A DNA stretch of 64,000 bases from Limnobacter humi. Lineage in GTDB: Bacteria > Pseudomonadota > Gammaproteobacteria > Burkholderiales > Burkholderiaceae_B. The notes under the pieces were generated by a model. That model was not told where the DNA came from. It worked only from the letters and a program-made list of their open reading frames with translations, and did no database searches. Below are positions 23,198 through 40,305 of this stretch, piece after piece (position 1 is the first letter of the stretch; every line of letters begins with the position of its first letter). The position numbers were made by a program, and so were the translations under genes. The DNA lies in the NCBI RefSeq assembly GCF_024518835.1, contig NZ_JANIGO010000002.1, forward strand, positions 501,522 to 565,521, written 5' to 3'.

Positions 23198-24610
23198 CTA
23201 CTCCTGAACAAGAACACAGAGCCGGCGCGCAACAGGCACACCCAGCAAAAAACCCAAACTGCCCAAACCCCACAACACCATCAAGGGTGCCAATGCCGAG
23301 CGGCCCACGCTGGCGGCCTGGGTCGCTTCCAGACCAAACACCAACACAGGCAAAAGCAAAGGCAGACCCAGCACCAGCAACAGCGCGGTACCACCGCGGG
23401 TCAGTAACACCAGCAAGCTCAGCAAACCCAGCAAAGGCACCATGGCCAGAACCCCGCTGGCACCCGCCCATAGAAATTGCAAAGCCTGGCTACCCGTGAA
23501 TTGAAATTGAACCACCAGCAAACCAGCGACCGGCAATAAAACAGCCACATGCTGCAAGAGCTGCAACAGGCAACGCCCCAACCAGTACGCGCCCAAGCTA
23601 CCCGGTGATGCATGGAGCAACAATTGTAGCCATCCGATCCGATGATCTTCAGCGAACCAATCCTTCACGGTGAGCAACACGGCCAACAGCAGACTGACCC
23701 AGGCCAGGGTTCGAGCAGCTTGCAGCTCGGTGCGATGCAGGGCAAAACCGCACAGGCTGAGCACGATCCAAAAAAACAGGGCACTCCAGGCCACTGTTTG
23801 CAAGCTGCTGCCCAACAACCAGCGATCACGCTGAATGCTCAACCCCAGTGCTCGGGCCCAACCCAGTGCACGAGCGGGTCTGCTTGCCCAGGCAACAGGG
23901 CTGACCAAGTGAGGGTTGAACAGGCTTGGCTCCTCACTTTTTTGCAGACAACTGCCAGAAAACTGCCAGGTCACGCGGACACAGGCTGACCCACCGGCCA
24001 TGGGCGGCCAAGGATGATGGGAAGCCATCAGCACGCTGCCGCCTTGGGCCAAGTGGCGTTTGATCAGGCCATCCAGCAATTGTTGCCCCGCATGGTCAAG
24101 GGTGTTGAGGGGCTCATCCAACAGCCAAACGCGGGCTGGTGACAATAACAACACGCCCAACCCCAGCCGGGCCGTTTGACCAGAAGACAGGGTCGCGACA
24201 TATTCGTAACGCCAATCCATCAAACCCAGTTGTTCAAGAACACCGTCCAATGAACCCAGTGACAACTTGGGTTCAGGCGCATCAGATGAGCCCAGCCAGC
24301 TGGCATGAAGAGCCAATTGCTGAAGCACCGTCAGCTCACCACGAAAACCCATGGTGGTGTTCAGCAGCAGCGCCTGCCCCGGTGCCATCTGGTTCAGTGC
24401 ATTGGCCAGACCTTTGAGAAACGTTGATTTGCCACAGCCATTGCTGCCGCGTACCTGGCAAAGCTCACCGGCCGGCAGTGTCATTTCAATATTCCGGGCC
24501 AACTCCACACCGCCAGCCTGCAGCACCGGCCATTTAACCTGCAACTGCCCAGAGGGTAACCACTGGCAGTTGGGCTGATGTACCGGGCGTGACGGTTGGG
24601 TCATGACCAT
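23198..24610 (-). CDS. CcmA-CcmB fusion: ABC ATPase joined to its membrane subunit
   Basis: A single 470-residue frame that joins two normally separate proteins. Residues about 20-215 are the CcmA ATPase, with Walker A RGSNGCGKSTFLKG, signature LSSGQTARLGLG and Walker B VWLLDEPLNTLD. Residues about 245-470 are CcmB, with six hydrophobic segments and the family end LTRGGTALLLVLGLPLLLPVL then VFGLEATQA. The two parts use ATP hydrolysis to free haem-CcmE from CcmC/D. The linker has no stop or frame break, so it is a true fusion in this sequence. The start may be 24610 or 24604 (both ATG). It lies 3 bases after ccmI. Confidence 0.92.
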   Translation of the reverse strand: MVMTQPSRPVHQPNCQWLPSGQLQVKWPVLQAGGVELARNIEMTLPAGELCQVRGSNGCGKSTFLKGLANALNQMAPGQALLLNTTMGFRGELTVLQQLALHASWLGSSDAPEPKLSLGSLDGVLEQLGLMDWRYEYVATLSSGQTARLGLGVLLLSPARVWLLDEPLNTLDHAGQQLLDGLIKRHLAQGGSVLMASHHPWPPMAGGSACVRVTWQFSGSCLQKSEEPSLFNPHLVSPVAWASRPARALGWARALGLSIQRDRWLLGSSLQTVAWSALFFWIVLSLCGFALHRTELQAARTLAWVSLLLAVLLTVKDWFAEDHRIGWLQLLLHASPGSLGAYWLGRCLLQLLQHVAVLLPVAGLLVVQFQFTGSQALQFLWAGASGVLAMVPLLGLLSLLVLLTRGGTALLLVLGLPLLLPVLVFGLEATQAASVGRSALAPLMVLWGLGSLGFLLGVPVARRLCVLVQE

Positions 24611-24613
24611 GGC

Positions 24614-25867
24614 TTAAGGCTGCTCCAGTTCAAGCTGCAACAAGGAATTCACCATGGGCGTTTGCTGCCAATTTGATTGCAGATCGCCATCTGCCGGGGT
24701 GGGCGTGCCCTGCTGGGCCAAACGGGCCTGCACAAACACCGCTGACGTCGAGCCCATGGGCTGAGCTTGGGCCAACGCATCGGGCTGAATCAAGGTGTTC
24801 TCATCCAGGGTGACCTGGTTAATACCCGCTTTGAGCTGGCTCGCCGGCACACGAATGGCGGCAAGCGGCATGCCCGGGCCTGCCTGCCACTTGGCCACCA
24901 CGAACAGCACAGCCTTGGGCGACGCGCGCTGAATGGCATCGGCCGACAAGCGGACAGCCACCTGCACCTTAAAAACAGCTGGCCCAGCAGCAGGTGTGTC
25001 CGGTGATGTTGTGTTGCCTTCACCCTTCAAGCGCGTTTGCTGAACCTGGCTTAGCAGGTTCCAGTACATGCTGGCCTGCGCGGTGTGTCCAGACTGCTCT
25101 GCTGCAGTGGCGGCCAAGGCGAGTGCTTTTTCATGTTTGGGATCGCTCTTCAGTGCTTGCGCAATGTACTGCTCGGGCTCGCCGGTCAATACACGACCTT
25201 GGGCCATGGCCAACATGTCAGCCAGGTCGGCCAACAGATCAGGATGCGAGGGTGACCGCTGCAAGGCTTGCCGCAGGGACGCGGCCGCTTCGGGATATTG
25301 GGCCAGTGATGCCTGAGTACGGGCCAACAGCACCCAGCCTTGCAAATCATCAGGATTGGTTTTCAGACGCGATTGCAGACCAGCCAGTCGATCTTCCAGT
25401 TTGACCCCATCACCGGGATGGGCTTGATCGGAACGATCCACGGTCGACGACTGGATCTGAATGGCATCCCGCGTTTTCGCAGGCCAGCGAAGCGCATCGG
25501 AATGAAAGCCGCCGACGCCCCAGAGCAGCAGCAGGGAGAGCACCAACAGGCAAACCACCCATGCCCGTGTACCCGTGATCAACACGGGCGGGAGGCCTGC
25601 AAGCGTGGGGGATGCTTGGAGCAAGGGACGCGTATCGTTGGCCATGTGTCGCCACTGCGCTATCAAATCCGCCTTGGCATCGGCATCCAGCAGGGGGTCA
25701 GACTCGATTTCCTGCCGCCGCTGAACCAGGGCATTCCATTCCGGCGAATGCTCACCCGTGGCATGAACAGGTGGTTGAAGAACTCGAAAGGGCGAACCGA
25801 TCTGGTAAAGCGCCAAGGCCACACCTGCAAAAAGCGCTGCAAGAAGGAGAACAAGCCCCAGATCCAA
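24614..25867 (-). CDS. ccmI: Cytochrome c biogenesis protein CcmI
   Basis: A 417-residue protein with an N-terminal membrane helix, a cytoplasmic loop with the typical Q-x-x-E-x-D-x-x-D-x-D segment (EIESDPLLDADAKADLIAQW), a second helix (WVVCLLVLSLLLLWGVG) and a periplasmic TPR region (GWVLLARTQASLAQYPEAAASLRQAL) plus a C-terminal domain. CcmI holds apocytochrome c for the haem lyase. The start is TTG 25867 with GAGGTGA just upstream. It is first in this ccm operon, which is unusual because ccmI is often last, and faces the multiheme cytochrome operon across 137 bases. Confidence 0.93.
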   Translation of the reverse strand: MDLGLVLLLAALFAGVALALYQIGSPFRVLQPPVHATGEHSPEWNALVQRRQEIESDPLLDADAKADLIAQWRHMANDTRPLLQASPTLAGLPPVLITGTRAWVVCLLVLSLLLLWGVGGFHSDALRWPAKTRDAIQIQSSTVDRSDQAHPGDGVKLEDRLAGLQSRLKTNPDDLQGWVLLARTQASLAQYPEAAASLRQALQRSPSHPDLLADLADMLAMAQGRVLTGEPEQYIAQALKSDPKHEKALALAATAAEQSGHTAQASMYWNLLSQVQQTRLKGEGNTTSPDTPAAGPAVFKVQVAVRLSADAIQRASPKAVLFVVAKWQAGPGMPLAAIRVPASQLKAGINQVTLDENTLIQPDALAQAQPMGSTSAVFVQARLAQQGTPTPADGDLQSNWQQTPMVNSLLQLELEQP

Positions 25868-26004: not shown

Positions 26005-26820
26005 ATGATTCAGGACAATCTGTTCAACTACAAGCACTTTGTGTTTCTCAAACTGGCCGTCGCCCTGGCCCTGATATCCGGCATTGCGTACCTGATACAC
26101 ACACCCGCCATCACAGCCAACGGCGGCACCTGGTTGGGCTACACCCTGGGAACCGTCGGCGCCCTGCTGATTGTGTGGCTCATGTGGCTCGGTGTGCGCA
26201 AGCGCCAATACAGCAACGAAACCGGTAATCTTCGGGCCTGGGTATCGGCACACATTTACCTTGGCTTGGCACTCACGGTGGTGGCGACGCTGCACACTGG
26301 TTTTCAAATTGGCTGGAATGTACACAGCCTAGCCTATGTGCTCATGATGGCCACCATTGCATCGGGGGGCTGGGGTTTGACACTGTATGTTCAAGGCCCC
26401 AAAGCAATGTCGGACGTTCTGAACCGTCAAAGTCCGGAAGAATTGGCCAGCTTGGTTGAACAGCTGGACCGTGAAGCAGCAAAAGCGAGCAAGCAGGCCG
26501 ACCAGGCTGTTCAAACATTGGTGGCGGCGTCGGCCGGCCAAGGTGTGTTCAACCAACGAACCGATGCCTGGCGTGGACACGTTTCTGCTTGCCTCACCGA
26601 CAACTGCGTTAATCAATTGCAACAAGCGCTGCAAGCCAATCCGGAATTGGCCGACCTCTATCGAAACCAGGTTCAGCGCTTGAGGGCATTGAAGCAACTT
26701 CGGCGTTATTATCACCTGCGTTTTTGGATGGATCTCTGGCTGTCGGTGCACGTGCCCCTGTCGTTTGGTTTGCTCGCGGCATTGCTGGCCCATGTGCTGT
26801 CTGTGTTCATTTACTGGTAA
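26005..26820 (+). CDS. Putative di-haem b-type membrane cytochrome (five helices)
   Basis: A 271-residue membrane protein not assignable by name. Predicted helices lie at about residues 14-32, 43-64, 80-100, 106-128 and 245-268. Helices 3 and 5 each contain a His pair 14 residues apart, HIYLGLALTVVATLH (H83/H97) and HVPLSFGLLAALLAH (H249/H263). This spacing is the hallmark of two bis-His b haems stacked across the membrane, as in bc1 cytochrome b. A helical, coiled-coil-like soluble insert (about 131-235, with two Cys at 196 and 201) lies between helices 4 and 5. It is first in the multiheme operon, so a quinol-to-cytochrome role is likely. TTG 25999 is an alternative start; the ribosome site is weak. 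Confidence 0.75.
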   Translation: MIQDNLFNYKHFVFLKLAVALALISGIAYLIHTPAITANGGTWLGYTLGTVGALLIVWLMWLGVRKRQYSNETGNLRAWVSAHIYLGLALTVVATLHTGFQIGWNVHSLAYVLMMATIASGGWGLTLYVQGPKAMSDVLNRQSPEELASLVEQLDREAAKASKQADQAVQTLVAASAGQGVFNQRTDAWRGHVSACLTDNCVNQLQQALQANPELADLYRNQVQRLRALKQLRRYYHLRFWMDLWLSVHVPLSFGLLAALLAHVLSVFIYW

Positions 26821-26829
26821 CCCTGTTTC

Positions 26830-28302
26830 ATGGCCGACCAATCCAACCACCCGCTTCAACAGGAAGTTCGCGCACTTCAAAAGCCTTTGGGCCTGAAACG
26901 TGTCGTGTCTTGGCTGCTGTTTGCGCCCATCTTGCTGGCTTTTTTGGTGCTGCCCTGGGCTGCCTCTTGGTGGCCAGAACCAAAGCCCGTGCAAACGGCT
27001 GCCTCCGCGCCTGAGAACCGGGCCATGCTGAACGCCAATACCCGAGTTTCGCAAACCCATGAACAAACTCGATATGCACTGGATGCAGTTTGGAATCCAG
27101 GCCCGTTGGCATCGGCACACGCCAATTTGGAGCAGGATTGCCGTGCATGCCATCAGGGCAATTTCTCCCGTGTGAAGGACGAAACCTGTACGCAATGCCA
27201 CCAGAACATGGGTGAGCATGTGACGCAACAAACAAGGTCTGATAGCCATTTCGAGGAAGGGCGTTGCGCATCCTGTCACCGGGATCACAAAGGCCGTGAA
27301 AGCCTGGCAGAGCAGAACAAACATTTTGTAGGGCGGGACTGCAGCAGTTGCCACAGTCAGATTGAACAAATTGCCCCGAATACCGAAACTCAAGCTGTTC
27401 GGGACTTTGCCGCCCAGGGTCATCCTGCCTTTCGTCTTACTGTGGCCACAGGGTCAGAGACCAGTGACCGCCGACGTATCCGAATGGAAAAAAATACCCT
27501 GCTGACCGAAAACACCGGCTTGAAGTTTCCGCATGATGTGCACCTGAACGCGAAAGGCATTGAAGGGCCCAAGAAACAGGTGGTGATGCAATGCGCCGAC
27601 TGCCATCGCCCCAACGACACCGGCACCAGCTTCAAGCCCGTTAACATGGCGGACCACTGCCAAAGCTGCCACAAGCTGAACTTTGAACCAGCGCTGCCAG
27701 ACAGGCAGGTGCCCCATGGGCCGGTGAGTGCGGTGTTGAGCACCGTCAGCGAATTTTACAGTTACCTGGCACTGCACCCGGAGGAAAAGGCCAAGGTGAA
27801 CAACCAACGGGCTGCGCTTCGTGCTCGCCCCGGTGAAAAAACCCCTCAGCGTTCAGCCCTGCAAAACCTGGCTGGCAACCCACAGGCCCAAGCGGTTTTT
27901 GCAACCCGGGAGCTGTTTGAAAAAACAGCCTGTTCGGTTTGCCATGCAGTGAAAGAAGCCCCGGCGCCTGCGGACCTGAACACCTCCGGCAAAGGTTTGC
28001 CGTATTACAACATTGCCGCAGTGGCACCTGCACACACCTGGTTACCCATGGCAAAGTTTGATCACAAAGCGCATGCATTGGAGTCCTGTGACAACTGCCA
28101 CGCGGCCAAAACCGCCAAGAAGGCCGAGCAAATCTTGATACCCGGCATCGAGAACTGCCAGACATGCCACGCGGGCCGGCAACCCGTTGCCCACAAAGTT
28201 CAATCCGATTGTGGTGTTTGCCATGGATATCATTTGCATCCATTGCCACCCAAAGAGGCTCAAACCATGAGCCCTCGTGCACACAACACATTCACGGAAT
28301 AA
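26830..28302 (+). CDS. Membrane-anchored decaheme cytochrome c
   Basis: A 490-residue protein with an uncleaved N-terminal membrane helix (about residues 24-46) and ten CXXCH haem motifs at Cys 104, 120, 146, 171, 255, 277, 368, 420, 443 and 461, e.g. CRACH, CTQCH, CASCH. Extra histidines (such as HFVGRDCSSCH and KFDHKAHALE) can serve as distal ligands. It is not a NapC/CymA type; the layout is closer to cytochrome c3-like repeats with a doubled CXXCH core. It should face the periplasm and take electrons from the b-type protein encoded nine bases upstream. The next gene starts seven bases downstream. Confidence 0.92.
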   Translation: MADQSNHPLQQEVRALQKPLGLKRVVSWLLFAPILLAFLVLPWAASWWPEPKPVQTAASAPENRAMLNANTRVSQTHEQTRYALDAVWNPGPLASAHANLEQDCRACHQGNFSRVKDETCTQCHQNMGEHVTQQTRSDSHFEEGRCASCHRDHKGRESLAEQNKHFVGRDCSSCHSQIEQIAPNTETQAVRDFAAQGHPAFRLTVATGSETSDRRRIRMEKNTLLTENTGLKFPHDVHLNAKGIEGPKKQVVMQCADCHRPNDTGTSFKPVNMADHCQSCHKLNFEPALPDRQVPHGPVSAVLSTVSEFYSYLALHPEEKAKVNNQRAALRARPGEKTPQRSALQNLAGNPQAQAVFATRELFEKTACSVCHAVKEAPAPADLNTSGKGLPYYNIAAVAPAHTWLPMAKFDHKAHALESCDNCHAAKTAKKAEQILIPGIENCQTCHAGRQPVAHKVQSDCGVCHGYHLHPLPPKEAQTMSPRAHNTFTE

Positions 28303-28309
28303 ATACCCC

Positions 28310-30283
28310 ATGTTTTTAAAACATCGATTGAACGCATTGAAGACCATCAAAATCCGAAACTGGGCATGGCCAGCCCTGGGGTTGAGTGTAACCATGGGTT
28401 TGCTGGCCTGTGGCGGTGGTGGAGGCGGCGGCTCCTCGGGCGGCGGTTTTTTTGTATCGCCTCTGGGCGTTGAGTTTCTGTCGGACACAGAAGTCAGCAA
28501 TATTGTTGGCCGTGCCATTCAGGCCTCACTGGATCGCAACCAAACCTCGACGATTGCCGTGGTGGACCGGGTGGGCAATGTGCTGGCGGTTTACCAAATG
28601 ACGGGCGCTGCCAACAACACCACCATCACCAGCGGACTAAACCCAACCACCGTCCAACTGGACGGGGCCGTCGTGCCCAGCACCCTGGCCGCCATCTCCA
28701 AAGCCATCACCGGTGCTTACCTGTCGTCGTCTGGGAATGCCTTCAGCACACGAACAGCCAGCCAAATTGTTCAGGAATTTTTTCAGCCTGGCGAAGTTGG
28801 TCAACCCAGCGGGCCACTGTATGGTGTGCAGTTCAGTCAGCTGCCCTGCTCCGACCTGAATGTGTGGCTGTCCCAGCATGCCACCATCGGCCCCAAACGC
28901 TCACCGCTGGGTTTGTCCGCCGACCCGGGGGGCTTTCCGATTTACGAAAATGGCCGCGTGGTGGGTGGCATCGGCATTATCGCGACGCCCAGTGGCAGTG
29001 CGGTCAACGGCACCTATGGTCTAGACCGAAATATTCTGGACAATGACCAAGACATTGAAGAGCAAATTGCCCAAGCAGCACTGCCAACCGAGATGCGTGC
29101 ACCCACCGATATTCGCGCCAATCGAATCACCGCCAATGGTCAAACCTTCCAATACACCAACAGCGACCCTGCACCGGCCAGTGCGGCATCGGTGCTGGCC
29201 AATGGTGCTTTTGTGGCGATCACCGGTTACAAATCGGTGTCTACACCCATTGCCGGCACAGCCTACGGTCAGGGAGCATCGGGGTATGTGGCCACGTCCA
29301 ATCCGGCATTCACGGGTTTGAATACTTTCAACCTGATCACCAACCCTGCCGACCCCACCACTGCCCGCTACCCTGCCACTGCAGGCGCTGGCGGCCTAAC
29401 CCAGGCAGAGGTTCAGAATATTTTGGTCGAGGGCATGAAAATTGCCAACCGCGCGCGGGCGCAAATTCGCCGCCCACTCGGTTCCCCAGCCGATGTAACC
29501 GTGAGTGTGGTGGACAGTGACGGCAGCATCCTCGGGCTGGTGCGTTCATCGGATGCGCCGATTTTCGGCACGGATGTGAGCGTTCAAAAGGCGCGGACAG
29601 CGCTGGCCTTTAGCAGCAACACCGCGCTGACAGACCTGCTGGACAGCGGCGACAACAGCAACGATGCCCTGGTGAATGCATTGAACACTTTTTTTGCACA
29701 ACAAGCTCAGGTATTGGACGGCACCGTGGCGTTTTCTGGCCGCGCAGTGGGCAATGTACACAGGCCCTATTTTCCGGATGGCGACACCAGCCAACCCAAA
29801 GGTCCGTTGTCCACAGCAATTTCTGAGGCGGGCAACAACTGGAGTCCGTTCAATGTGGGCTTCCAACTCAACGTGGTTTTGAACCAGGTGCTGTCCAATC
29901 TAGCCGGTACGGGCCGTGCAGCCAATGTATTTGATCCGGCACTGAACACCACCTGTGCAGACCCGACGGTGAATGCTGCACGCCAAAAGCGGTTTGCCAA
30001 TGGCATGCAGATATTCCCGGGTGGGTTCCCCATTTACAAAGGCGACACGCTGGTGGGCGCCGTGGGTGTATCGGGTGATGGCGTGGACCAAGACGACATG
30101 GTGGGTTACCTGGGCGTGATCAATGGTGCAACAGCCGCTGGCACCGCCAATATGCGTCCCTTCCCGGCCACCCTGCGTCGCGCGGATGGCTTGAGCAAAG
30201 GTGGGCAATTTCTGAAGTATGTGCAGTGCCCGCAAGCGCCTTTTAATGACAGCAATGCCACCAACGTGTGTCCAAACTCATGA
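28310..30283 (+). CDS. Lipoprotein with two HbpS/GlcG-like (haem-binding) domains
   Basis: A 657-residue lipoprotein: lipobox LLAC with Cys at residue 34, followed by a glycine/serine tether of about 15 residues. Two tandem domains follow. The first (about 60-275) has STIAVVDRVGNVLAVYQM and GGFPIYENGRVVGGIGI; the second (about 370-620) has VTVSVVDSDGSILGLVRSS, VSVQKARTALAF and GGFPIYKGDTLVGAVGV. These are GlcG/HbpS (DUF336) hallmarks; HbpS-type proteins bind haem or related cofactors. A cysteine pair near the C-terminus (PQAPFNDSNATNVCPNS) may form a disulfide. In this operon it may be an outer-membrane partner of the cytochromes. The start 28310 gives a proper signal peptide; 28277 does not. 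Confidence 0.85.
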   Translation: MFLKHRLNALKTIKIRNWAWPALGLSVTMGLLACGGGGGGGSSGGGFFVSPLGVEFLSDTEVSNIVGRAIQASLDRNQTSTIAVVDRVGNVLAVYQMTGAANNTTITSGLNPTTVQLDGAVVPSTLAAISKAITGAYLSSSGNAFSTRTASQIVQEFFQPGEVGQPSGPLYGVQFSQLPCSDLNVWLSQHATIGPKRSPLGLSADPGGFPIYENGRVVGGIGIIATPSGSAVNGTYGLDRNILDNDQDIEEQIAQAALPTEMRAPTDIRANRITANGQTFQYTNSDPAPASAASVLANGAFVAITGYKSVSTPIAGTAYGQGASGYVATSNPAFTGLNTFNLITNPADPTTARYPATAGAGGLTQAEVQNILVEGMKIANRARAQIRRPLGSPADVTVSVVDSDGSILGLVRSSDAPIFGTDVSVQKARTALAFSSNTALTDLLDSGDNSNDALVNALNTFFAQQAQVLDGTVAFSGRAVGNVHRPYFPDGDTSQPKGPLSTAISEAGNNWSPFNVGFQLNVVLNQVLSNLAGTGRAANVFDPALNTTCADPTVNAARQKRFANGMQIFPGGFPIYKGDTLVGAVGVSGDGVDQDDMVGYLGVINGATAAGTANMRPFPATLRRADGLSKGGQFLKYVQCPQAPFNDSNATNVCPNS

Positions 30284-32532
30284 TGCATTCCAACATGACC
30301 CAACAGCGCGCCGCCCCATGGACGCAAAAGCCGGTGGCCAGGCTGGCCGCCAGCCTGGTTGCGTTGGCCTTCACGCCATTGAACGCTGCTGCACAAATCC
30401 AACCCACGCTCATGGCCCAAGTGGGCAGTGCCCTGGGGCAAGTGGCCCAACGTGTGGAAAATGTCGGCAAACAAATCGTGGGCATTCCCGATGCTGCCGA
30501 GTTGCTGGGCGATGAGCGCCCGGTTGCACTGCTCCAAGTGTTCACCAAACGGATTGTGGTTCGCAGTGAGCCCAGCAGCAGTGCCCGTGGCATTGGTGAA
30601 TTTTTCAAAGGCCAATTGGTCGATGCGTTCGAAGAGAAAGACGGCTGGTACCGTGTTCGTATTCAAGGCAGCCTGCTGGGTGGCTCTGTGGGTTGGGTTC
30701 AGCAAACGCAAGGCGACTACGGCGACATGGCCCTGGGCCTGTTTGCACCACGGGTCTTCCCACACAATCCGTTGCTAGACCCACAAACCGACAGCAGTCT
30801 GCGTCCATCCACCACCGCCACTGCCGGCAGTGTGCCGGAATCTGTGCCTCGCGCCATTCCTGGTCGGGCCCAAAGTGTTCCGCCCCGGGATATCGCCATC
30901 CCGGTGATTGATCCGTCGCAGGTGCCGCCACCGCAGCCCAACCTGCCCCGTGAAACCGTGTCAGTGCCTGACCGTTGGCGCATCATGCAGTCGCTGGGTT
31001 TTAAATTTCCTATTTACGACCCCTACAACCAAAACCCGATCAAGGCCGATTTGCCAGTGCTGCGGGACGTGCTGGGACCCGACTGGTTTTTTAACCTGAA
31101 TGCGATTTCTGACACGCTCTATGAAGAACGTCGGTTCCCGGTGCCAGTACCACCCGTCACCTCCACCAAACCGGGACAAACCAGTATTTTTGGTGGGGGC
31201 GACCAGTCCATTTTTGCGCAAAACCTGATCGTTAGTTTGTCCCTGATCAAGGGCAACACCACCTTCCGGCCGCCAGACTATGAATTCAGGCTGGTGCCAG
31301 TATTCAATTACACCGACGTTCGGGTTCAAGAAGACCGTCTGCTCAAGATCAGCCCCACATCGGGCACCGAACGCAAAGAAGGGTTTGTCGGCATCCAGGA
31401 GGCCTTTGCCGACATCCACCTGCGCAACGTGTCAGACCGCTACGACTTCGACAGCCTGCGGGTTGGAATCCAGCCCTTCATCAGCGACTTCCGGGGCTTC
31501 CTGTTTCAGGACTTGCCCATTGGGGTGCGCCTGTTTGGTAACCGGGACAACAACCGCACCCAATACAATCTGGGTTATTTCAAGCGGATTGAAAAAGACA
31601 CCAACAGTGGCTTGAATGACATTCGCCAGCCGTTGCGGGACGATGATTTCCTGGTGGCCAACCTGTATCGACAGGACTTCCCGGTGGTGGGCTTTACCAG
31701 CCAGGTGTCCTACATTCACAACCGCAACCATGAAAATGACGGTCGGTATTTCGATGCCAACGGCTTTCAGGTGCGACCAGCCTCCATCGGTGACCAAAAG
31801 CCGTTTGCCTACCATGTGGACTATTTCGGCTTCAGTGGCGACGGCCATTTCGGACGCACCAACATCACCACCTCAACCTATTACGCCACAGGCAAGGTAG
31901 AGCGCGATCCCATTGCCCAACGGGAGCTGGACATCAGTGCCTGGTTCCATGCCACCGAGGTGTCTCGGGACTTTGACTGGATGCGTGTGCGGGGCAGCTT
32001 CTTGTATGCCTCGGGTGACAAAGACCCCTTCGATGGCAAAGCCGAGGGTTTTGATGCCATTTTCGAAAACCCGCAATTTGCGGGCGCTGACACCAGTTTC
32101 TGGATTCGCCAAAACATCCCGTTGGTGGGCGGTGGCGGTGTGGCCTTGTCGGGCCGCAACGGCGTTCTGCCCTCCTTGCGTTCCTCCAAAGAACAAGGCC
32201 AATCCAACTTTGTAAACCCTGGCCTGCTGTTGCTGGGCATTGGTGCCGACCTGGATGTGTTGCCGGAATTACGAATTGTTAGCAACTTGAACAAATTGCA
32301 GTTTGAGGACACCACCGTGCTGGGCGTGTTGCGTCAACAACGGCCGCCTTCCCGCGACATTGGTTATGACGCCTCGGTGGGATTCCAGTACCGGCCCTTC
32401 TTCACGCAAAACGTGGTGGTCAATGGCTCGATTGCGCGGCTCTTTCCAGGCGATGGCTACAAAGACCTGTTTGGTGCGGACAACGCCAAACGCCCTTACT
32501 CACTGTTGTTCAACGTGTTGTTGACATTTTAA
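30280..32532 (+). CDS. Putative outer-membrane beta-barrel protein with N-terminal SH3-like domain
   Basis: A 750-residue exported protein. A signal peptide ends near residue 38 (NAAAQ). Residues about 75-145 form a bacterial SH3-like domain (KRIVVRSEPSSSARGIGEFFKGQ ... GWYRVRIQGSLLG..VGWVQ, read in pieces), and a Pro-rich spacer follows (about 180-225). The remaining 500 residues show alternating polar/hydrophobic strands with aromatic belts (DYEFRLVPVFNYTDV, FTSQVSYIHNRN, ASVGFQYRPFF) and end in SLLFNVLLTF; a terminal Phe is the usual outer-membrane insertion signal. No named porin family is recognised. It could be the barrel of a porin-cytochrome conduit. ATG 30280 overlaps the preceding stop (ATGA). 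Confidence 0.78.
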   Translation: MMHSNMTQQRAAPWTQKPVARLAASLVALAFTPLNAAAQIQPTLMAQVGSALGQVAQRVENVGKQIVGIPDAAELLGDERPVALLQVFTKRIVVRSEPSSSARGIGEFFKGQLVDAFEEKDGWYRVRIQGSLLGGSVGWVQQTQGDYGDMALGLFAPRVFPHNPLLDPQTDSSLRPSTTATAGSVPESVPRAIPGRAQSVPPRDIAIPVIDPSQVPPPQPNLPRETVSVPDRWRIMQSLGFKFPIYDPYNQNPIKADLPVLRDVLGPDWFFNLNAISDTLYEERRFPVPVPPVTSTKPGQTSIFGGGDQSIFAQNLIVSLSLIKGNTTFRPPDYEFRLVPVFNYTDVRVQEDRLLKISPTSGTERKEGFVGIQEAFADIHLRNVSDRYDFDSLRVGIQPFISDFRGFLFQDLPIGVRLFGNRDNNRTQYNLGYFKRIEKDTNSGLNDIRQPLRDDDFLVANLYRQDFPVVGFTSQVSYIHNRNHENDGRYFDANGFQVRPASIGDQKPFAYHVDYFGFSGDGHFGRTNITTSTYYATGKVERDPIAQRELDISAWFHATEVSRDFDWMRVRGSFLYASGDKDPFDGKAEGFDAIFENPQFAGADTSFWIRQNIPLVGGGGVALSGRNGVLPSLRSSKEQGQSNFVNPGLLLLGIGADLDVLPELRIVSNLNKLQFEDTTVLGVLRQQRPPSRDIGYDASVGFQYRPFFTQNVVVNGSIARLFPGDGYKDLFGADNAKRPYSLLFNVLLTF

Positions 32533-32535
32533 GGT

Positions 32536-35500
32536 TTGGAAATACTGCCTGTGCCACATCAACCCGCCACTGCTGCCCCACTGTTAAGTCGCCAACGCCT
32601 GAGGGTGTTGGGCGCGGCTTTGGGCCTTGCCTGCATGTTGGGGCTGCTCACTGGCGAGCAGGAAGCCTGGTCATCCTCGGAAAAATTGTCCAACCGGGCC
32701 TACACCATGGCACCGGCTGCACCTGCCCGACAAACCGAAGCGCAGGCCCAACTGAAGTCCGAAGGCTGCATGAGCTGCCATACCCAAACCGACCAACACA
32801 CCATGCATGAAAACCCAGGTGTGGTGCTGGGCTGTACCGACTGCCATGGCGGCAATGCGTCGGTGAAATGGGCTGGCCCGGAAACCCCGGTGGGCAGCCT
32901 GGCCTTTGACCACACCCGTGCAGCCCGTGAACACGGTTACAACCCAGCCTACAGGGTTGCGTTGGACCAGGCTCATGTATTGCCCCGCAATGAAAAATTC
33001 TGGAACTACCCAGCCTCCGCCAACCCACAACGCAGCTTTGCAAAACTCAACAAGGAACACCCGGCGTACATTCGCTTTATCAACCCGGGTGATTTGCGCG
33101 TGGCGCGTGATGCCTGCGGGTCTTGCCATTTGCCCATCATTCAGGCTCAAGAAAGGAGCCTGATGAGCACCTCGGCCATGCTCTGGGGCGGTGCGTCCTA
33201 CAACAACGGCATTCTGCCGTTCAAGCGTTACATCGTGGGCGAGTCATACACCGCAGACAGTCAACCGGGCCTGCTGAAAAACCCGATTGAACCTTCGGAC
33301 GAACTGCACAAGTTCAAGGGTATTTTGCCCTCGCTGGCCCCCCTACCCGCCTGGGAAACTGCACCACCTGGCGATATTTTCCGGGTTTTTGAACGCGGTG
33401 GGCGTGTCATCAACTCCACGTTTCCGGAAGTGGGCCTGCCCAACGTGTTGGGCCAAATTCAGCGGCTGGACGAGCCCGGCCGCCCCGACATCAAACAGTC
33501 CAACCGGGGCCCTGGCACTGGCCAGCGCATTGCGGTGCCCCTGATTAACGTCACCAAAACCCGCCTGAACGACCCGCACCTGTGGTTCTTGGGCACGAAT
33601 GAACAACCGGGTGATTACCGGTCCTCCGGCTGCACCGCCTGCCACACGGTGTACACGAACGACCGTGACCCGCTGCATGCGGGCCCTTATGCCAAACTGG
33701 GCAACACCGGCACCACGCAAACCGTGGATCCAACGATTGCCAAAAATGAATCGGGGCACCCGGTGAAACACAGCTTCACACGGGCCATTCCCAGCTCGCA
33801 ATGCATGGTGTGCCACATGCACCAGCCCAATGTGTTTGTGAACAGTTTTTACGGCTACATCATGTGGGACTATGAAAGTGATGCACCCCACATGTGGCCG
33901 GAGAAACAGCGCTACCCCAGCGACGCTGAGATGCGGGAAATTCTGGACCGCAACCCGGAAGAAGCATCGGTGCGCGGCAAATGGAGTGACCCGGATTTCC
34001 TGAAAGACGTATCCACCCTGAACAGCAAACTGAAAGACACCCAATTTGCCGACTACCATGGCCACGGCTGGAACTTCCGGGCGGTCTTCAAGCGAAACCG
34101 CAAAGGCACCCTGCTGGATGCCAAAGGCAACCCGGTGTCGGATGATGATCCCAAAAAATTTGAAAAAGCCGTGCATTTGAGCTCCATTCACATGGACCTG
34201 GGCATGCACTGCGTGGACTGCCACTTTGCTCAAGACATGCACGGCAACGGCCACATTTATGGTGAAGTGGCCGCCGCCGTGGAAGTGGACTGCGCCGACT
34301 GCCACGGCACTGCCACGCAATACCCCACCCTGCGCACCAGTGGGCCTGCTGCGCCACCCGGCGGCACCGACCTCACCAAGCTGCGCACGCAAGACGGTCG
34401 CAAACGGTTTGAGTGGCGGGATGGCAAGCTTTACCAACGCGCCGCGCTAGACCCCGACAAAGAATGGGAAATGAGCCTGGTGAAAGACACCGTCAACCCC
34501 AATAACCCGCATTACAACGCCAAAGCCGCCAGGGCCAAATTGATGGCCGCCGGTGAAGAGGGCATGGACGGAAAATGGGGCCCCGGTGTGAAGGAACTTG
34601 CGCATGACAACAGCAAGATGACCTGCTTTACCTGCCACCTTAGCTGGACCACCAGCTGCGCCGGTTGCCACCTGCCGATTCAGGCCAACTGGAAAACCGA
34701 ACGGCTGCATTACGAGGGCGGAGAAACCCGCAACTATGCCACCTACAACCCGCAGGTGGCCCGCGACGACATGTTCCAGCTCGGCAAACATAGTCCAGTG
34801 AAAGGCAGCCGCATTGCGCCGGTGCGTTCCAGCTCGGCATTGGTGTTGTCGTCCACCAACGCCAACCGCGAGCGCATTTACATTCAGCAACCGCCGATCG
34901 CTGCCAGCGGTTTTTCGTCGCAGGCATTTGCCCCGCACTACCCGCACACCGAACGCAAAGAAGAAACCAAAACCTGCACGGATTGCCATGTGTCTCGCGA
35001 CGATGACAACAATGCCATCATGGCTCAGCTGCTGTTGCAGGGGACCAATTTTGTCAACTTCATCGGCTTCAATGCCTGGGTGGGTTCAACACAAGACATT
35101 TCGGCCATCACGGTGACTGAATGGGATGAACCACAAGCAGTGATTGGCAGCTACTTGCACCAATACGCCTACCCGGACTATTACGCCCGCCACCTGGCCC
35201 ATCAACGTGAATTGGCCGATGGTGAAATGCCCATGCTGCAAGACCACAGCACTGGTGGTGCAGCCTCGTGCATACAACTGCGCGGCGAATACGTGTTTGT
35301 GGCCGAGGGCAAAGGTGGCTTCCGTGTGTACGACGCGGCCAGCGTGGCCAACAAGGGCTACAGCCAGCGCATCGTGAGCGCCCCCTTCAGCAGCCTGGGG
35401 CAAGACACCCATGTGGCCAGCAAAAACGCCACCTGCATGGCCTTGCCCACCAACCAGAACATTGCCCCCGAGCGCAACCAGGGCGACCTGATGCGCAATA

Positions 35501-36459
35501 TCAACCAGGAACAAGCCTTCCACCCGATGTACCACTACGCCTTCATTACCGACAGTGAAGAAGGCTTGATTGTGGTGAACGTGGATACGCTCACCGACGG
35601 CGAAGCCCGCAACAATTTCTTGAAGCGTGCCACCACTTGGAACGACAAAGGGATACTCAACGGTGCCAGCCACATCACCCTGGCAGGCCATTATGCCTAT
35701 GTGGCCACGCCCAAAGGCTTGGTGTTTTTGGACATTGATGACCCATTGAAACCCCGCACCATCACCACCCTGCCCTTGCAGGATGTGCGGCACACCGCAG
35801 TTCAATTCCGGTACTTGATGGCCACCACCGCAAAGGGCCTGGAGGTGATTGACATCACCAACCCCGAGAAACCCGCGCACACAGGTGCAGTGGTGCCCTT
35901 GGCCAATGCACGGGGTGTGTACCTGGCCCGCACCTATGCCTATGTGGCGGCTGGCGCACAGGGCTTGGCCATCATTGACATAGAAAAGCCCCGTCAACCC
36001 AAACTTTATCAACTGTTCACAGCGGGTGGACAACTGAACGATGCACGCGACGTGGTGGTGGGCTCTACCAATGCATCCCTGTTTGCTTACGTGGCCGATG
36101 GCGTGAACGGATTGAAGGTGTTGCAACTGACCTCGCCCGAGAGTCAGCCCAAGTTTTACGGCTTTTCTCCCGACCCCAAACCCGCGCTGATTGCCTGGCG
36201 CAAAACCCACAGCCCAGCCATTGCGCTGTCCAAGGGCCTGGACCGTGACCGAGCCGTGGACGAAACCGGTGGTCAAATTGCGGTGTTTGGTCGAATCGGT
36301 GCGCGGCCGTTTAATCGCCAGGAAATGGAAGCGTTTTACCGGCGCCCGGATGGTCGACTGTGGACGGTCACCGACACGGTTGAAAAAGACAAATACGTGC
36401 CTTTGCTGGCCAGACGCCCGGCAGTGGACTCCGTGGCCTTCAAGAGGACAACACCATGA
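32536..36459 (+). CDS. Large decaheme cytochrome c with C-terminal LVIVD-repeat propeller
   Basis: A 1307-residue exported protein with a signal peptide (about residues 20-44). Ten CXXCH motifs are at Cys 78, 100, 194, 366, 423, 559, 586, 697, 708 and 814. From about residue 910 to 1230 there are at least five YVA-x-x-x-GL-x-x-x-DI repeats (YAYVATPKGLVFLDIDDP, YAYVAAGAQGLAIIDIEKP and similar), which define the LVIVD family and predict a beta-propeller. This combination of electron-transfer and propeller modules is not one I can name. The start codon is TTG 32536 or GTG 32551; the reading frame follows the barrel gene by three bases. It is likely periplasmic or surface-exposed. Confidence 0.88.
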   Translation: MEILPVPHQPATAAPLLSRQRLRVLGAALGLACMLGLLTGEQEAWSSSEKLSNRAYTMAPAAPARQTEAQAQLKSEGCMSCHTQTDQHTMHENPGVVLGCTDCHGGNASVKWAGPETPVGSLAFDHTRAAREHGYNPAYRVALDQAHVLPRNEKFWNYPASANPQRSFAKLNKEHPAYIRFINPGDLRVARDACGSCHLPIIQAQERSLMSTSAMLWGGASYNNGILPFKRYIVGESYTADSQPGLLKNPIEPSDELHKFKGILPSLAPLPAWETAPPGDIFRVFERGGRVINSTFPEVGLPNVLGQIQRLDEPGRPDIKQSNRGPGTGQRIAVPLINVTKTRLNDPHLWFLGTNEQPGDYRSSGCTACHTVYTNDRDPLHAGPYAKLGNTGTTQTVDPTIAKNESGHPVKHSFTRAIPSSQCMVCHMHQPNVFVNSFYGYIMWDYESDAPHMWPEKQRYPSDAEMREILDRNPEEASVRGKWSDPDFLKDVSTLNSKLKDTQFADYHGHGWNFRAVFKRNRKGTLLDAKGNPVSDDDPKKFEKAVHLSSIHMDLGMHCVDCHFAQDMHGNGHIYGEVAAAVEVDCADCHGTATQYPTLRTSGPAAPPGGTDLTKLRTQDGRKRFEWRDGKLYQRAALDPDKEWEMSLVKDTVNPNNPHYNAKAARAKLMAAGEEGMDGKWGPGVKELAHDNSKMTCFTCHLSWTTSCAGCHLPIQANWKTERLHYEGGETRNYATYNPQVARDDMFQLGKHSPVKGSRIAPVRSSSALVLSSTNANRERIYIQQPPIAASGFSSQAFAPHYPHTERKEETKTCTDCHVSRDDDNNAIMAQLLLQGTNFVNFIGFNAWVGSTQDISAITVTEWDEPQAVIGSYLHQYAYPDYYARHLAHQRELADGEMPMLQDHSTGGAASCIQLRGEYVFVAEGKGGFRVYDAASVANKGYSQRIVSAPFSSLGQDTHVASKNATCMALPTNQNIAPERNQGDLMRNINQEQAFHPMYHYAFITDSEEGLIVVNVDTLTDGEARNNFLKRATTWNDKGILNGASHITLAGHYAYVATPKGLVFLDIDDPLKPRTITTLPLQDVRHTAVQFRYLMATTAKGLEVIDITNPEKPAHTGAVVPLANARGVYLARTYAYVAAGAQGLAIIDIEKPRQPKLYQLFTAGGQLNDARDVVVGSTNASLFAYVADGVNGLKVLQLTSPESQPKFYGFSPDPKPALIAWRKTHSPAIALSKGLDRDRAVDETGGQIAVFGRIGARPFNRQEMEAFYRRPDGRLWTVTDTVEKDKYVPLLARRPAVDSVAFKRTTP

Positions 36460-37823
36460 TGACCTTCGCGACTTTTCATCGGTGGCCAGACCTCAAATCC
36501 GTGATGATATGGGCCTTGTGGGTGCTGACCTGTCTGGTGTGGACTGTGTCTGCAGCGCAGGCCCAAGTCATGCCGCACCAGTCCGGATTGAAATCCATGG
36601 GCACAGTAAATTGCGCCAGTAGCACCTGCCACGGCAGCATTGACGAGCGCAGCGCCACGCCCGTGCTGCAAAACGAATACACCACCTGGCTGCGGCAAGA
36701 CCCGCACACCCAAGCCTATGCGGTGTTGAAAAATGAGCAGTCACGCCGCATTGCCAAAAACCTCGGCTTGCCCAAACCAGCGCATGAATCCAAAGTTTGC
36801 CTGGATTGCCACAGCCACAATCCGCCTGCTGCCCAACGCGGCCCACGGTTTGATGCCACAGACGGCGTGAACTGCGAGGCCTGCCATGGCCCTGCCGAAC
36901 AATGGATCAAAACGCATGTGGAGCCCAACGCCACCCATGCCAAAAATGTGGCCAACGGCCTGTACCCCACCAATGAACCCTATGCCGTCGCCAAACTCTG
37001 CAGCAGTTGCCATGTGGGCGATGCCAGCAGGCCCATCACCCACCGCATCATGGGTGCCGGGCACCCGCGCATCTCCCTAGAAACCGATACTTTTCTGGCT
37101 TTGCAACCACCGCATTACCGAATCGACGCCGACTGGACCCAACGCAAAGGCGCTTTTGACAGTGCCAAAATTTGGGCCATGGGCCAGCTGGTGGCAGCAC
37201 AAAACCTGGCCGACCTGATGGCGGACCCGAAACGCAACCGGCAAGGCATACTGCCCGAGCTGATGGTGTTTGATTGCCATGCCTGCCATTCGCCCATGAG
37301 CAAAAAGGACTGGACACCCAAACTGGGCAGCAGCCCTGGCCAGGCCCGCATCAACGATTCCAGCCTTCTCATGCTTCAGGCCTTGTTGAAAGGCGCACGG
37401 CCTGAGCTTTATCCAACCTTGGCCAGCAAGGTGAATTCGGTGCATGTGGCAGCGACATCGCCCGCATCCAGCATGACGCAATTTGAAACAGCGGCCCGCG
37501 ATCTTCAGGCTCACTTGAAGAGCCTGCAACCTCAGTTGGCCTCCAGCAATTTCAATACAGCCCAACTGGACAATGTGTTGCGCGAATTGCTGAACCTCGC
37601 CGGCGAACAGCGCTTGACTGATTTTGCCGGGGCTGAGCAGGTGTATATGTCGATGTCAGCAGTGGCCAACGGCTTGCAAAGCCGAGGTAACTCGGCAGTG
37701 GGTAGCAAGGTTAATCAGCGCTTGCCCGCCCTACTGGCTTTTGTACGCAACGATGAAAGCTATGACCGCACCGCCTTCCAACAGGAGTTGGTCAAACTCA
37801 AAGCGTCTGTGGGAGGTCAATAA
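36456..37823 (+). CDS. Pentaheme cytochrome c, c554/c'-like
   Basis: A 455-residue exported protein with a signal peptide (residues 1-37, ending SAAQAQ). Haem sites are an atypical CX4CH at residues 53-59 (NCASSTCHGS) and four CXXCH at Cys 115, 140, 182 and 274 (CLDCH, CEACH, CSSCH, CHACH). The first motif and the GVNCEACHGPAEQWI segment resemble the cytochrome c554/c' group. A helical C-terminal half without haem sites (about 285-455) follows. It overlaps the preceding gene by ATGA and stops one base before the next start, so it is probably translated with them. Confidence 0.88.
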   Translation: MMTFATFHRWPDLKSVMIWALWVLTCLVWTVSAAQAQVMPHQSGLKSMGTVNCASSTCHGSIDERSATPVLQNEYTTWLRQDPHTQAYAVLKNEQSRRIAKNLGLPKPAHESKVCLDCHSHNPPAAQRGPRFDATDGVNCEACHGPAEQWIKTHVEPNATHAKNVANGLYPTNEPYAVAKLCSSCHVGDASRPITHRIMGAGHPRISLETDTFLALQPPHYRIDADWTQRKGAFDSAKIWAMGQLVAAQNLADLMADPKRNRQGILPELMVFDCHACHSPMSKKDWTPKLGSSPGQARINDSSLLMLQALLKGARPELYPTLASKVNSVHVAATSPASSMTQFETAARDLQAHLKSLQPQLASSNFNTAQLDNVLRELLNLAGEQRLTDFAGAEQVYMSMSAVANGLQSRGNSAVGSKVNQRLPALLAFVRNDESYDRTAFQQELVKLKASVGGQ

Positions 37824-37824
37824 C

Positions 37825-40305
37825 ATGCGCCCAACACCCAACAACAGCCAAACAGCCAAACCAATGTTTGCACACCTCACAGCCGATTACGACATTGCAA
37901 TTGTGGGTTCAGGCCCTGCGGGGTTGTCGGCCGCCTCACGCGCGCAGGAACTGGGCTGCAGCTACGTGCTGCTGGAGGCTGAAAACCACGCGTCTGACAC
38001 CATCTACAAATACCAGAAGGGCAAACACGTGATGGCCGAGCCCGGCTTTTTACCTCTGCGCAGTGGCATGTCATTCGAGGCAGGCAAGCGCGAAGCGATT
38101 TTGGGCACGTGGGACACACAACTTGCCCAGCAAGGCATACACATTCAATACAAAAAAAAGGTGTCGACCATTCAAAAACTGAATGGCGGGGAAGGCCCGT
38201 TTGCTCTGGCTTGTGAAGATGGCACGCAATGCACTGCCCGCACAGTGATTTTGGGTATTGGTCTGCAAGGCAACATTCGAACCATTGGTACAGCGGGTGA
38301 CGACCTGCCCAATGTGCAATACACCCTGAACGACCCCGATGAATTTCAGAACGAAACCATTGTGGTGATCGGCGCGGGCGATGCGGCGATTGAAAACGCA
38401 CTTGGCCTGATGAGCAAAAACACCGTGTTGTTGGTGAATCGCCGGGAAGAATTTGCCCGCTGCAAGGAAGGCAACCTGAATTTGATTCTGGCTGCCGACA
38501 GCAACGACGACCTGAAAATCCTGTACAACACCAGCACAGTACGCATTGAAGAAATTGCCGGCGCTACCGACAACGCCCCCAGCCTGCGCTATGTGTACAA
38601 AGGGCCCGATGGTGAGCGGACCCAGGATGTTCACCGCATTATTGCCCGCTTGGGTGCAACCCCACCCCGCCAATTGGTGGAGGGCTTTGGGGTGCAGTTT
38701 CCCAACAGCGATCCGAATGCGGTGCCAGCGCTCTCGGAAACCTATGAATCCAATGTACCAGGGCTGTTCATTGTGGGTGCGCTGGGTGGCTACCCCCTGA
38801 TTAAACAAGCCATGAACCAGGGTTATGAGGTGGTGGACACCATCATGGGCTTGCCGGTGGTTCCTGCGGATGAACCGCTGCTGGCTGACAAGTTCAAGAG
38901 CCTGGGTGACCGCAGTGTATCCGAGGTACTCGACCTGATTGCGCACAATGTGCCGGTGTTCTCGGGCATGACACGCCTTCAACTGCGTGAGTTCATGTTG
39001 GAATCTGCCGTGCTGAAACCCGCCAAAGGGCAGGTGGTGTTCAAGAAAAACGATTACACCAGCACTTTCTTTTCGATTGTGGAAGGGTCGGTGGACATTG
39101 AGTTGGTGGACAAGCAAGGCAAACCCTTCACGGTCAACCTGGGGCAAGGCCAGTATTTCGGTGAAATGGGGTTGATTTCTGGTCGGCGCCGAACTGCCAC
39201 AGTGCGCGCCGGTGCAGGCTGTGTGCTCGTGGAAACACCGCGCAAAGCCATGCTCAAGCTGATTGCCTCGGTTGACAGCGTTCGAAAAACCATCGATGAG
39301 GTGTTTGTGCGCCGGGCCATCAGCATGTACCTGGCCCCCTCGCTGGAAGCCACCGCGGTTGAAAAACTGCTAAGCGGTGGTATCGATGTTCGCCGCTATG
39401 CCAAAGGCGAGGTGCTGTTCAAGGACGGCGATGAGGCCGATGGCCTGTACCTGATTCGCCGTGGCTCGGTGGCTATTTCCAAGGTGATTGCCGGGAAGGA
39501 AATGGTGCTTTCCTATGTGTCTGCCGGGAACTACGTCGGCGAAATGGCCATGCTGAACAACAATCCGCGCTCAGCCACTGTCACAGCAGCCGTCATGACG
39601 GAAGCCCTGGTCTTGCCGGCAGGCCCGGTGCGCACAGTGCTGGATGAAAACCCACAGTGGCGCGCTGCCTTGCAACTGCAGGTGAGCAAACGCGTGCGCA
39701 GCAACATCTTCCGGGAGGACCAAGCCTACCGAGACAGCGACCTGGTGCGCTTCTTGATGCAAGAGGGTTTGGGTGAAGCCACCGATGCGCTCATCATTGA
39801 CGAAAACCTGTGCATTCAGTGCGACAACTGCGAAACCGCGTGTGCCGACACCCACGATGGCACATCCAGGCTGGACCGCAGTGCCGGCCCCACTTTCCAG
39901 AATATTCACATTCCCACATCCTGCCGGCATTGCGAACACCCACACTGCATGAAAGACTGCCCACCCGATGCCATTCGCCGAAACGAACACGGCGAAGTGA
40001 TGATCAATGACTCCTGTATTGGCTGTGGCAACTGCCAGCGCAACTGCCCCTATGGCGTGATTCAAATGGCGGTGAAAGCGCCCCCCAAGAAAGGCAATCT
40101 GTTGACCTGGCTGCTGTTTGGCTTGGGTGACAAGCCCGGTCAGCGCGTGGGTGAGTACGACCCAAATGCCATCAAAAAAGCGGTGAAATGCGACATGTGC
40201 CACGGCAGCAGTGGTGGACCGGCCTGCGTGCGGGCCTGCCCCACCGGTGCAGCCATCCGGATATCGCCTGAACAGTTCCTGATCAAGCCCAGTGAAACGG
40301 CTTGA
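37825..40305 (+). CDS. Fusion of NAD(P)H flavoprotein, two cyclic-nucleotide-binding domains and four-cluster ferredoxin
   Basis: An 826-residue cytosolic protein without membrane helices. Residues 20-345 are a thioredoxin-reductase-like flavoprotein with FAD motif AIVGSGPAGLSAASRAQ and NAD(P)H motif VVIGAGDAAIENALG, but no redox CXXC, so it is of the ferredoxin/YpdA-like type. Residues about 370-485 and 505-620 are two CRP/PKA-type cNMP-binding domains, each with a phosphate-cassette-like segment (YFGEMGLISGRRRTATV and YVGEMAMLNNNPRSATV). Residues 655-815 bind four [4Fe-4S] clusters (Cys 663-673, 700-712, 731-741, 789-805). It can pass electrons between NAD(P)H and a partner under cyclic-nucleotide control (inference). 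ATG 37825 is one base after the cytochrome stop and follows GGGAGG. Confidence 0.92.
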   Translation: MRPTPNNSQTAKPMFAHLTADYDIAIVGSGPAGLSAASRAQELGCSYVLLEAENHASDTIYKYQKGKHVMAEPGFLPLRSGMSFEAGKREAILGTWDTQLAQQGIHIQYKKKVSTIQKLNGGEGPFALACEDGTQCTARTVILGIGLQGNIRTIGTAGDDLPNVQYTLNDPDEFQNETIVVIGAGDAAIENALGLMSKNTVLLVNRREEFARCKEGNLNLILAADSNDDLKILYNTSTVRIEEIAGATDNAPSLRYVYKGPDGERTQDVHRIIARLGATPPRQLVEGFGVQFPNSDPNAVPALSETYESNVPGLFIVGALGGYPLIKQAMNQGYEVVDTIMGLPVVPADEPLLADKFKSLGDRSVSEVLDLIAHNVPVFSGMTRLQLREFMLESAVLKPAKGQVVFKKNDYTSTFFSIVEGSVDIELVDKQGKPFTVNLGQGQYFGEMGLISGRRRTATVRAGAGCVLVETPRKAMLKLIASVDSVRKTIDEVFVRRAISMYLAPSLEATAVEKLLSGGIDVRRYAKGEVLFKDGDEADGLYLIRRGSVAISKVIAGKEMVLSYVSAGNYVGEMAMLNNNPRSATVTAAVMTEALVLPAGPVRTVLDENPQWRAALQLQVSKRVRSNIFREDQAYRDSDLVRFLMQEGLGEATDALIIDENLCIQCDNCETACADTHDGTSRLDRSAGPTFQNIHIPTSCRHCEHPHCMKDCPPDAIRRNEHGEVMINDSCIGCGNCQRNCPYGVIQMAVKAPPKKGNLLTWLLFGLGDKPGQRVGEYDPNAIKKAVKCDMCHGSSGGPACVRACPTGAAIRISPEQFLIKPSETA

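Follow-up and report, generated by a model that had tools for sequence, protein, structure and literature searches.

What might Limnobacter humi do with seven adjacent genes that together encode 25 c-type haem sites? The genes in question, g1 to g7, lie in a 64,000-nucleotide stretch of its genome that we analysed as a whole and call the window (NCBI RefSeq assembly GCF_024518835.1, contig NZ_JANIGO010000002.1, positions 501,522 to 565,521 of the forward strand; all coordinates below are those of the window). On balance, we think that they encode a multi-part electron line across the cell envelope, leading from NAD(P)H to the outer membrane and most likely working outward. The original prediction had seen here a tightly spaced operon for a trans-envelope conduit between the cytosol or quinones and the outer membrane, and two tests of it had been set beforehand: the presence of a barrel in the g4 product and the shared occurrence of the gene set.

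A conserved and modular seven-gene operon

As had been described, the seven open reading frames (ORFs) form a tight run on the (+) strand, at 26005-40305 of the window and in a host genome of 3.24 Mb. The gaps between them measure -16 to +9 bases, and no frame is interrupted by a stop. A motif count bore out the claim of at least 25 c-type haem sites (24 CXXCH and one CX4CH), against a haem-motif mean of at most 0.053 per protein in shuffled proteins. A promoter scan gave 2 promoter-like sites, none of them ahead of g1 (shuffle mean 5.1), and a terminator scan 19 terminator-like sites (shuffle mean 20.9). The genes are the following:

g1, 26005..26820, + strand: b-type cytochrome, an inner-membrane protein with two HX13H pairs and SGXXG
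g2, 26830..28302, + strand: decahaem c cytochrome with an N-terminal membrane segment and c7/c3-type modules; 10 CXXCH
g3, 28310..30283, + strand: lipoprotein with HbpS-like (DUF336-type) regions
g4, 30268..32532, + strand: predicted outer-membrane beta-barrel of 18 strands (~31084-32526) with an N-terminal SH3-type domain
g5, 32536..36459, + strand: exported decahaem cytochrome with haem sites up to residue 818 and a predicted C-terminal LVIVD beta-propeller (~35065-36243)
g6, 36456..37823, + strand: exported pentahaem cytochrome of the c554 kind; 4 CXXCH and 1 CX4CH
g7, 37825..40305, + strand: cytosolic FAD/NAD(P)H oxidoreductase domain (thioredoxin-reductase-like) with two cyclic nucleotide monophosphate (cNMP)-binding domains and four [4Fe-4S] sites

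A scan with g5 retrieved 263 relatives; our synteny counts concern the best 80 of these 263, with gene positions in the fetched regions taken from tblastn. The genome samples covered the phylum (299 and 398 genomes), the order (200) and the genus (16), and the sampled genomes are kin, so that the counts are non-independent. With the window included, the alignments held 56 rows for g4, 60 for g5, 44 for g1, 35 for g7, 25 for g2 and 21 for g6; four of the g6 rows came from the PCC4-like loci described below and the genome search for g6 therefore used a mixed profile.

The shared occurrence of the gene set was clear. Genes g1-g5 are syntenic in 59 of the 80 loci, in the order g1-g2-g3-g4-g5 in 58 of these (L058 differs), and all seven genes are present in 51 of the 59. 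Nearly all of the 21 loci with fewer than g1-g5 are truncated by a contig end; locus L051 is not cut in this way and has just g3-g5 in 23.7 kb. When g1 was missing at a locus, it was found elsewhere in the genome in two out of three cases (L051 and L014, not L083), and a missing g6 was likewise found elsewhere in four out of five (not for L058).

The system is patchy in the phylum, nearly fixed in the genus, strongly conserved and modular. We detected g5 in 11/398 phylum genomes, 10/200 order genomes and 14/16 genus genomes. All 11 g5-bearing genomes of the phylum sample fall among the 15 of 398 that possess a strong g1. As for the other four, G154 has g4 near an apparent contig end, and G001, G034 and G153 had no match for g4 or g5; the regions of G001 and G034 were read and hold g7-g1-g2, that of G001 stopping shortly past g2. 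Genome G214 carries the sets g7-g1-g2 and g6-g3-g4-g5 separately, ~670 kb apart on the same contig, and so reveals two modules. The position of g7 varies: it follows g6 in the Burkholderiales-type arrangement (22 complete loci) and precedes g1 in most gamma- and alphaproteobacterial loci. Arrangement changed 13 times on the g5 tree (shuffle mean 34.1). In this tree the window groups with Limnobacter rows with a support of 100, its closest named relatives being Limnobacter proteins with 82-85% identity. The g5 of Silanimonas (Lysobacteraceae) falls within a Burkholderiales-rich part of the tree, which suggests gene transfer.

Two side observations concern this distribution. Genome G399, of the same genus and 100% complete by estimate, lacks g5 and has kept the cytochrome c maturation gene for CcmE, a natural loss. 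The operon also occurs on contigs filed under Klebsiella pneumoniae, Mycobacteriaceae and Candidatus Marinimicrobia (L022, L027, L046 and L048); their g5 sequences group with beta/gamma- or alphaproteobacterial rows and the bins are probably mislabelled.

An inner module related to PCC4-like clusters

The protein encoded by g1 would have about five helices, by analogy with published inner-membrane proteins (IMPs) of porin-cytochrome clusters. Its signature runs WX3HX13H, SGXXG, WX3HX13H, it matched Pfam Ni_hydr_CYTB (E 4e-5, under cut-off), and at least two HX13H pairs are present in 59/59 homologues. The g2 product, with Pfam Cytochrome_C7 and 3ov0 as its top solved-chain match, has 10 CXXCH in 59 of 62 homologues and 9 in the other 3. 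In g7, Pfam recognised Pyr_redox_3, cNMP_binding (2 stretches), Fer4 and Fer4_11, and the C-terminal part shows 16 invariant Cys across the 35 alignment rows; its lone CXXCH sits within this 4Fe-4S region and was rejected as a haem site. In the FAD/NAD region no CxxC was found, in a scan limited to homologues with a GSGPAG string, and a loose NADPH-type pattern matched 36 of 63 homologues without separating NADPH from NADH. Direct support for g7 feeding or draining g1 comes from locus L119, where a g7-type FAD-cNMP-FeS protein and g1 are fused in a single ORF of 1118 residues.

Genes related to g1 exist beyond this operon, its profile matching 29 of 398 phylum genomes (14 weakly). At four of the loci fetched for these weak matches (L120, L125, L126 and L128), one run comprises a small c554-type multihaem protein, a match to the g7 profile, an IMP and a decahaem protein. 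A FAD/NAD/2Fe-2S protein was recognised by Pfam in L120 and L128 and, from its position and similar C terminus, is probably also encoded in L125 and L126; the cNMP plus 4Fe-4S make-up, identified by Pfam in L120, aligns over all four loci. Moreover, L126 and L128 encode a 5-haem protein, and L120 and L128 a protein with an outer-membrane-type C terminus. These clusters fit the text description of PCC4 by He et al. 2017 (PMC5566968), which names a porin, 4-, 5- and 10-haem cytochromes, an IMP and a pfam13247 protein. This assignment and the PCC3-like one below leave out the weak-match loci L124, L127, L129 and L131.

Comparison by hhalign gave 99.0% (E 6e-18) for g1 and the PCC4-like IMPs, 99.4% (E 1e-21) for the N-terminal part of g2 and the PCC4-like decahaem protein, and 100% (E 2e-54) for the cNMP-FeS part of g7. 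The g4 alignment reached a probability of 0.1% with each of two single putative PCC4-like porins, a comparison to be read in the light of the two sequences involved and the fast divergence of barrels; the four PCC4-like regions yielded no match to g3, g4 or g5. Judged by sequence, the inner module g7-g1-g2 is common with the PCC4-like clusters and the outer module is different. The protein combination had originally been called unrecognised; this no longer holds for g1, g2 and the cNMP/Fe-S part of g7, homologous to the PCC4-matching clusters.

The likeness to PCC4 thus comprises a homologous b-haem IMP, decahaem protein and cNMP plus [4Fe-4S] protein and, taking the compared loci as matches to the description, a c554-type small multihaem protein, an NAD(P)H-FAD module and an outer-membrane-type protein. 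The PCC4 IMP signature, two WX3HX13H and SGXXG, is complete in g1 and in 53/59 homologues, and the pfam13247 Fe-S protein corresponds to Fer4_11 in g7, although in the paper this protein is listed for Subgroup II alone. Further differences lie in the haem counts and the NAD(P)H module: the counts are 10, 10 and 5 here (conserved) and 4, 5 and 10 in the published text, and a thioredoxin-reductase-like NAD(P)H-FAD domain is fused here to the cNMP-FeS part, whereas the PCC4-like loci have a separate FAD/NAD/2Fe-2S protein.

PCC3 is more distant. Three PCC3-like loci (L122, L123 and L130) combine an IMP with 21-24-haem proteins, and hhalign aligned g1 with their IMPs at 98.5% over 96 columns. The likeness lies in this related b-haem IMP, whereas the extracellular and periplasmic cytochromes of PCC3 have, in the published text, medians of 34 and 21 haems (PMC5566968), far from the 10, 10 and 5 found here. 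In L130 (genome G364, same order), 24-, 11- and 13-haem proteins stand beside the IMP and a protein with an outer-membrane-type C terminus. A different kinship was rejected: in the search for DmsE/MtrA family members, TIGR03508 gave g2 27.8 and g6 22.4 bits, against a cut-off of 192.2.

An outer module of barrel, propeller cytochrome and lipoprotein

The barrel expected in the g4 product appeared in its AlphaFold2 model, which predicts 18 long strands, and the C-terminal residue is F, Y or W in 75/75 homologues. The fold search list was headed by AlgE/OprD, the Pfam scan found SH3_3 and no barrel family, and comparison with the PDB by sequence and by profile gave no useful match. The logic of a barrel plus multihaem cytochromes is that of MtrCAB, MtoAB and PioAB, from which the present system differs by its 18-strand g4 and the extra NAD(P)H module; as a check for the MtrB/PioB family, the AlgE/OprD-headed list excludes nothing. 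For g5, the fold search rows were propeller proteins and this result covers the propeller, not the haem part. The g6 protein matched Pfam Cytochrome_C554 (E 8e-10), and its homologues have 4 CXXCH in 67/67 cases and the CX4CH in 66/67. The g3 protein has four stretches of Pfam HbpS-like (E 9e-24) and, as read from its sequence, a lipobox LLAC followed by a Gly run; a lipobox pattern lies within the first 60 residues of 42/64 homologues, the starts being uncurated.

The HbpS-like domains of g3 raise the idea of assimilatory iron or haem reduction, in which haem or ferric iron, bound by g3 at the cell surface, would be reduced through the line for uptake. The FRE/NOX-like pattern of the b-haem protein noted in the text of He et al. 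(PMC5566968) points the same way. We consider this explanation highly improbable, as 25 haems would be a heavy iron cost for iron uptake and inspection by eye of 13 recurrent neighbour families, most of them without a library scan, revealed no iron-uptake gene.

The chief doubt about the proposed line concerns the crossing of the outer membrane by electrons, and several observations count against the reading as a whole. The barrel of MtrB has 26 strands, and the AlgE/OprD barrel class is known for solute transport. The predicted AlgE/OprD-like barrel of 18 strands would be narrower than that of MtrB, making a haem wire within it speculative. In g5, the haem part has ~80 residues per haem and the strong conservation extends into the propeller, so that the protein resembles an enzyme more than a cytochrome for discharge at the surface. 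Its homologues with a readable start carry an ordinary Sec-type signal without a recurrent lipobox, and a surface location is therefore only putative. At locus L083 the interval between g2 and g4 is too short for g3, which may thus be dispensable. The strict phosphate-cassette pattern of cNMP-binding domains occurs at least once in 48 of 63 g7 homologues and at least twice in just 34. Finally, the literature search found no physiological data on the system in any host.

The solute-type barrel and the enzyme-like conservation of g5 would suit a periplasmic multihaem enzyme with its own pore. The g4 protein would then be a solute channel, g5 the redox catalyst and g3 the substrate-binding partner, with g7-g1-g2-g6 supplying or taking electrons that never cross the outer membrane. 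We regard this possibility as rather unlikely. Homologues of the inner module also accompany several multihaem cytochromes in the PCC4-like clusters, joined in L120 and L128 by a protein whose C terminus is of the outer-membrane type; furthermore, g5 has no relative of solved structure in the PDB by sequence or by profile and, as a consequence, no active site can be named. The trans-envelope conduit is only partly supported, but it is still the best reading.

Proposed electron path, direction and published relatives

In the proposed conduit, g7 would oxidise NAD(P)H at its FAD, and the electrons would travel by way of four [4Fe-4S] clusters to the b-haem pair of g1, where exchange with quinol would also be possible. 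From g1 they would move to the inner-membrane-anchored decahaem protein g2, and the pentahaem g6 would bridge the way to the decahaem g5, located at the barrel g4. The lipoprotein g3 might be a surface or periplasmic partner to which a cofactor or the terminal acceptor binds. The flow is probably regulated by the cNMP domains of g7, possibly through gating by cyclic nucleotides. The order of the carriers is suggested by homology, the L119 fusion and the two modules, the positions of g5 and g3 are presumed, and control by cyclic nucleotides is surmised from the two cNMP-binding domains. The PCC4-like clusters support the conduit reading, since they encode a similar chain of FAD-NAD(P)H protein, cNMP-FeS protein, b-haem IMP and decahaem protein.

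An outward direction is favoured because flavin modules of the NAD(P)H type, in three different forms, recur within or next to three kinds of related cluster (for the PCC3-like type, in one divergent neighbour at L122). It is also favoured by the hosts, as those named are mostly heterotrophs or thiosulfate users. For Limnobacter this lifestyle also appears in the text of a 2026 metagenome paper (PMC13264449), which suggests export for its mostly heterotrophic metagenome-assembled genomes (MAGs). Such an outward line could offer heterotrophs that live aerobically or under oxygen limitation a side exit for reducing power. The reverse flow, in which Fe(II), Mn(II), a mineral or another cell would donate electrons to quinone or NAD(P)+, is how He et al. 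drew PCC3 and PCC4, with an extracellular donor and the quinone pool at the end (PMC5566968), and a PCC-holding Limnobacter MAG dominates a groundwater community (PMC13264449). Electron uptake nevertheless seems decidedly unlikely to us. The reduction of NAD(P)+ by high-potential donors would require energy, the operon shows no recognisable energy-coupling subunit, and the host lifestyles and the export suggestion just mentioned also speak against it.

In group 1 of the same 2026 paper, 11 clusters pair a large decahaem gene (4-5 kb) with an adjacent porin of ~20 strands, and 7 of them also have a ferredoxin-NADP reductase close by (PMC13264449). Judged from its text alone, group 1 is probably the present system, the existence of which has thus been glimpsed in print. 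The g5 gene, at 3.9 kb, is slightly below their range, and the sections on group 1, compared by text, leave the b-haem protein, HbpS lipoprotein, propeller and cNMP domains undescribed; for the dominant Limnobacter MAG (SAR200), the text leaves the PCC group unstated. Additional IMP-multihaem clusters, with porins of 24 strands in Leptothrix cholodnii and 25 strands in C. ferrooxidans, are known by description (PMC5566968) and could be relatives of the system. Two other candidates were rejected: an Idiomarina paper whose apparent DUF336 match is DUF3365, and a Methylobacter conduit paper that, in the text seen, describes an MtrAB-type set. No paper on an LVIVD-cytochrome or on the full gene set was found, nor any published account of the full anatomy, the PCC4 kinship or the module structure, in a search that left most subscription papers, bioRxiv and supplements outside. 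Nothing useful was found in it on the hosts as electroactive bacteria. We conclude that the system is a variant of the IMP-type porin-cytochrome kind that has been partly flagged in print, with a putative function in electron transfer.

Textbook conduits begin at quinol, and this system suggests a direct route from NAD(P)H to the outer membrane. The carriers, among them Limnobacter, Halieaceae, Steroidobacter and Silanimonas, are mostly aerobic heterotrophs. A bolder view, which we put forward tentatively and consider more doubtful than not, would see in the operon a cyclic-nucleotide-gated, NAD(P)H-powered exporter that many aerobic, heterotrophic Proteobacteria carry as standard equipment, with an unusual outer module (propeller decahaem protein, narrow 18-strand barrel and HbpS-like lipoprotein). 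If so, bacteria not deemed electroactive would become regulated electron dischargers. Because several of the named carriers have been cultured, mostly as aerobes, the function and direction of the predicted PCC3/PCC4-type conduits could be studied in everyday laboratory strains, with no need to resort to slow iron bacteria.

Haem supply and neighbouring genes

A full-looking System I set for cytochrome c maturation (19308-25867) lies on the opposite strand, facing the operon:

24614..25867, - strand: CcmH/CycH-type TPR protein (Pfam TPR_CcmH_CycH E 3e-18, Ig_CycH E 3e-15)
23198..24610, - strand: CcmA-CcmB fusion, haem exporter (NCBIfam ccmA at residues 31-201 and ccmB at 273-453, both under curated cut-offs)
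22478-23194, - strand: probable CcmC, named from Pfam Cytochrom_C_asm and position
21892-22296, - strand: CcmE (Pfam)
19901-21895, - strand: CcmF (Pfam)
19308-19985, - strand: redoxin/CcmG-like protein, probably CcmG from Pfam Redoxin and position

The host genome also encodes, elsewhere (L118), a ResB/CcsA pair (System II). In 14 of the 80 loci, CcmAB or CcmH homologues directly precede g1, in two of them just as a fragment at the contig edge. Within the order sample, CcmE is present in 122/200 genomes and in 9 of the 10 with g5, and its sole copy is ~10-11 kb from g5 in seven of the nine with both. In G459 and G526, CcmE is on a different contig, and none was found in G566 (82% complete). 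System I looks tied to the operon in these lineages.

Downstream, a convergent cluster (40311-49389) begins five bases past g7 and encodes a CHASE2 adenylate/guanylate cyclase, a FecR-domain protein and, as read by eye, a large filamentous-haemagglutinin-like protein. The cyclase adjoins g7, with its two cNMP-binding domains, and a link between both is possible. As parts of the operon, these three genes were rejected, the cyclase being present in 5 of the 80 loci, all in the Limnobacter clade. Other lineages carry neighbours of their own. A protein of 138-209 residues is encoded between g2 and g3 in alphaproteobacterial-type loci (L048, 5843-6361, a copy without Pfam match, and homologues in 7 loci). 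In gammaproteobacterial loci, a PP2C phosphatase and FHA-domain proteins follow g6 (L053, 15003-17081, recognised there by Pfam, and homologues in 8-9 loci).

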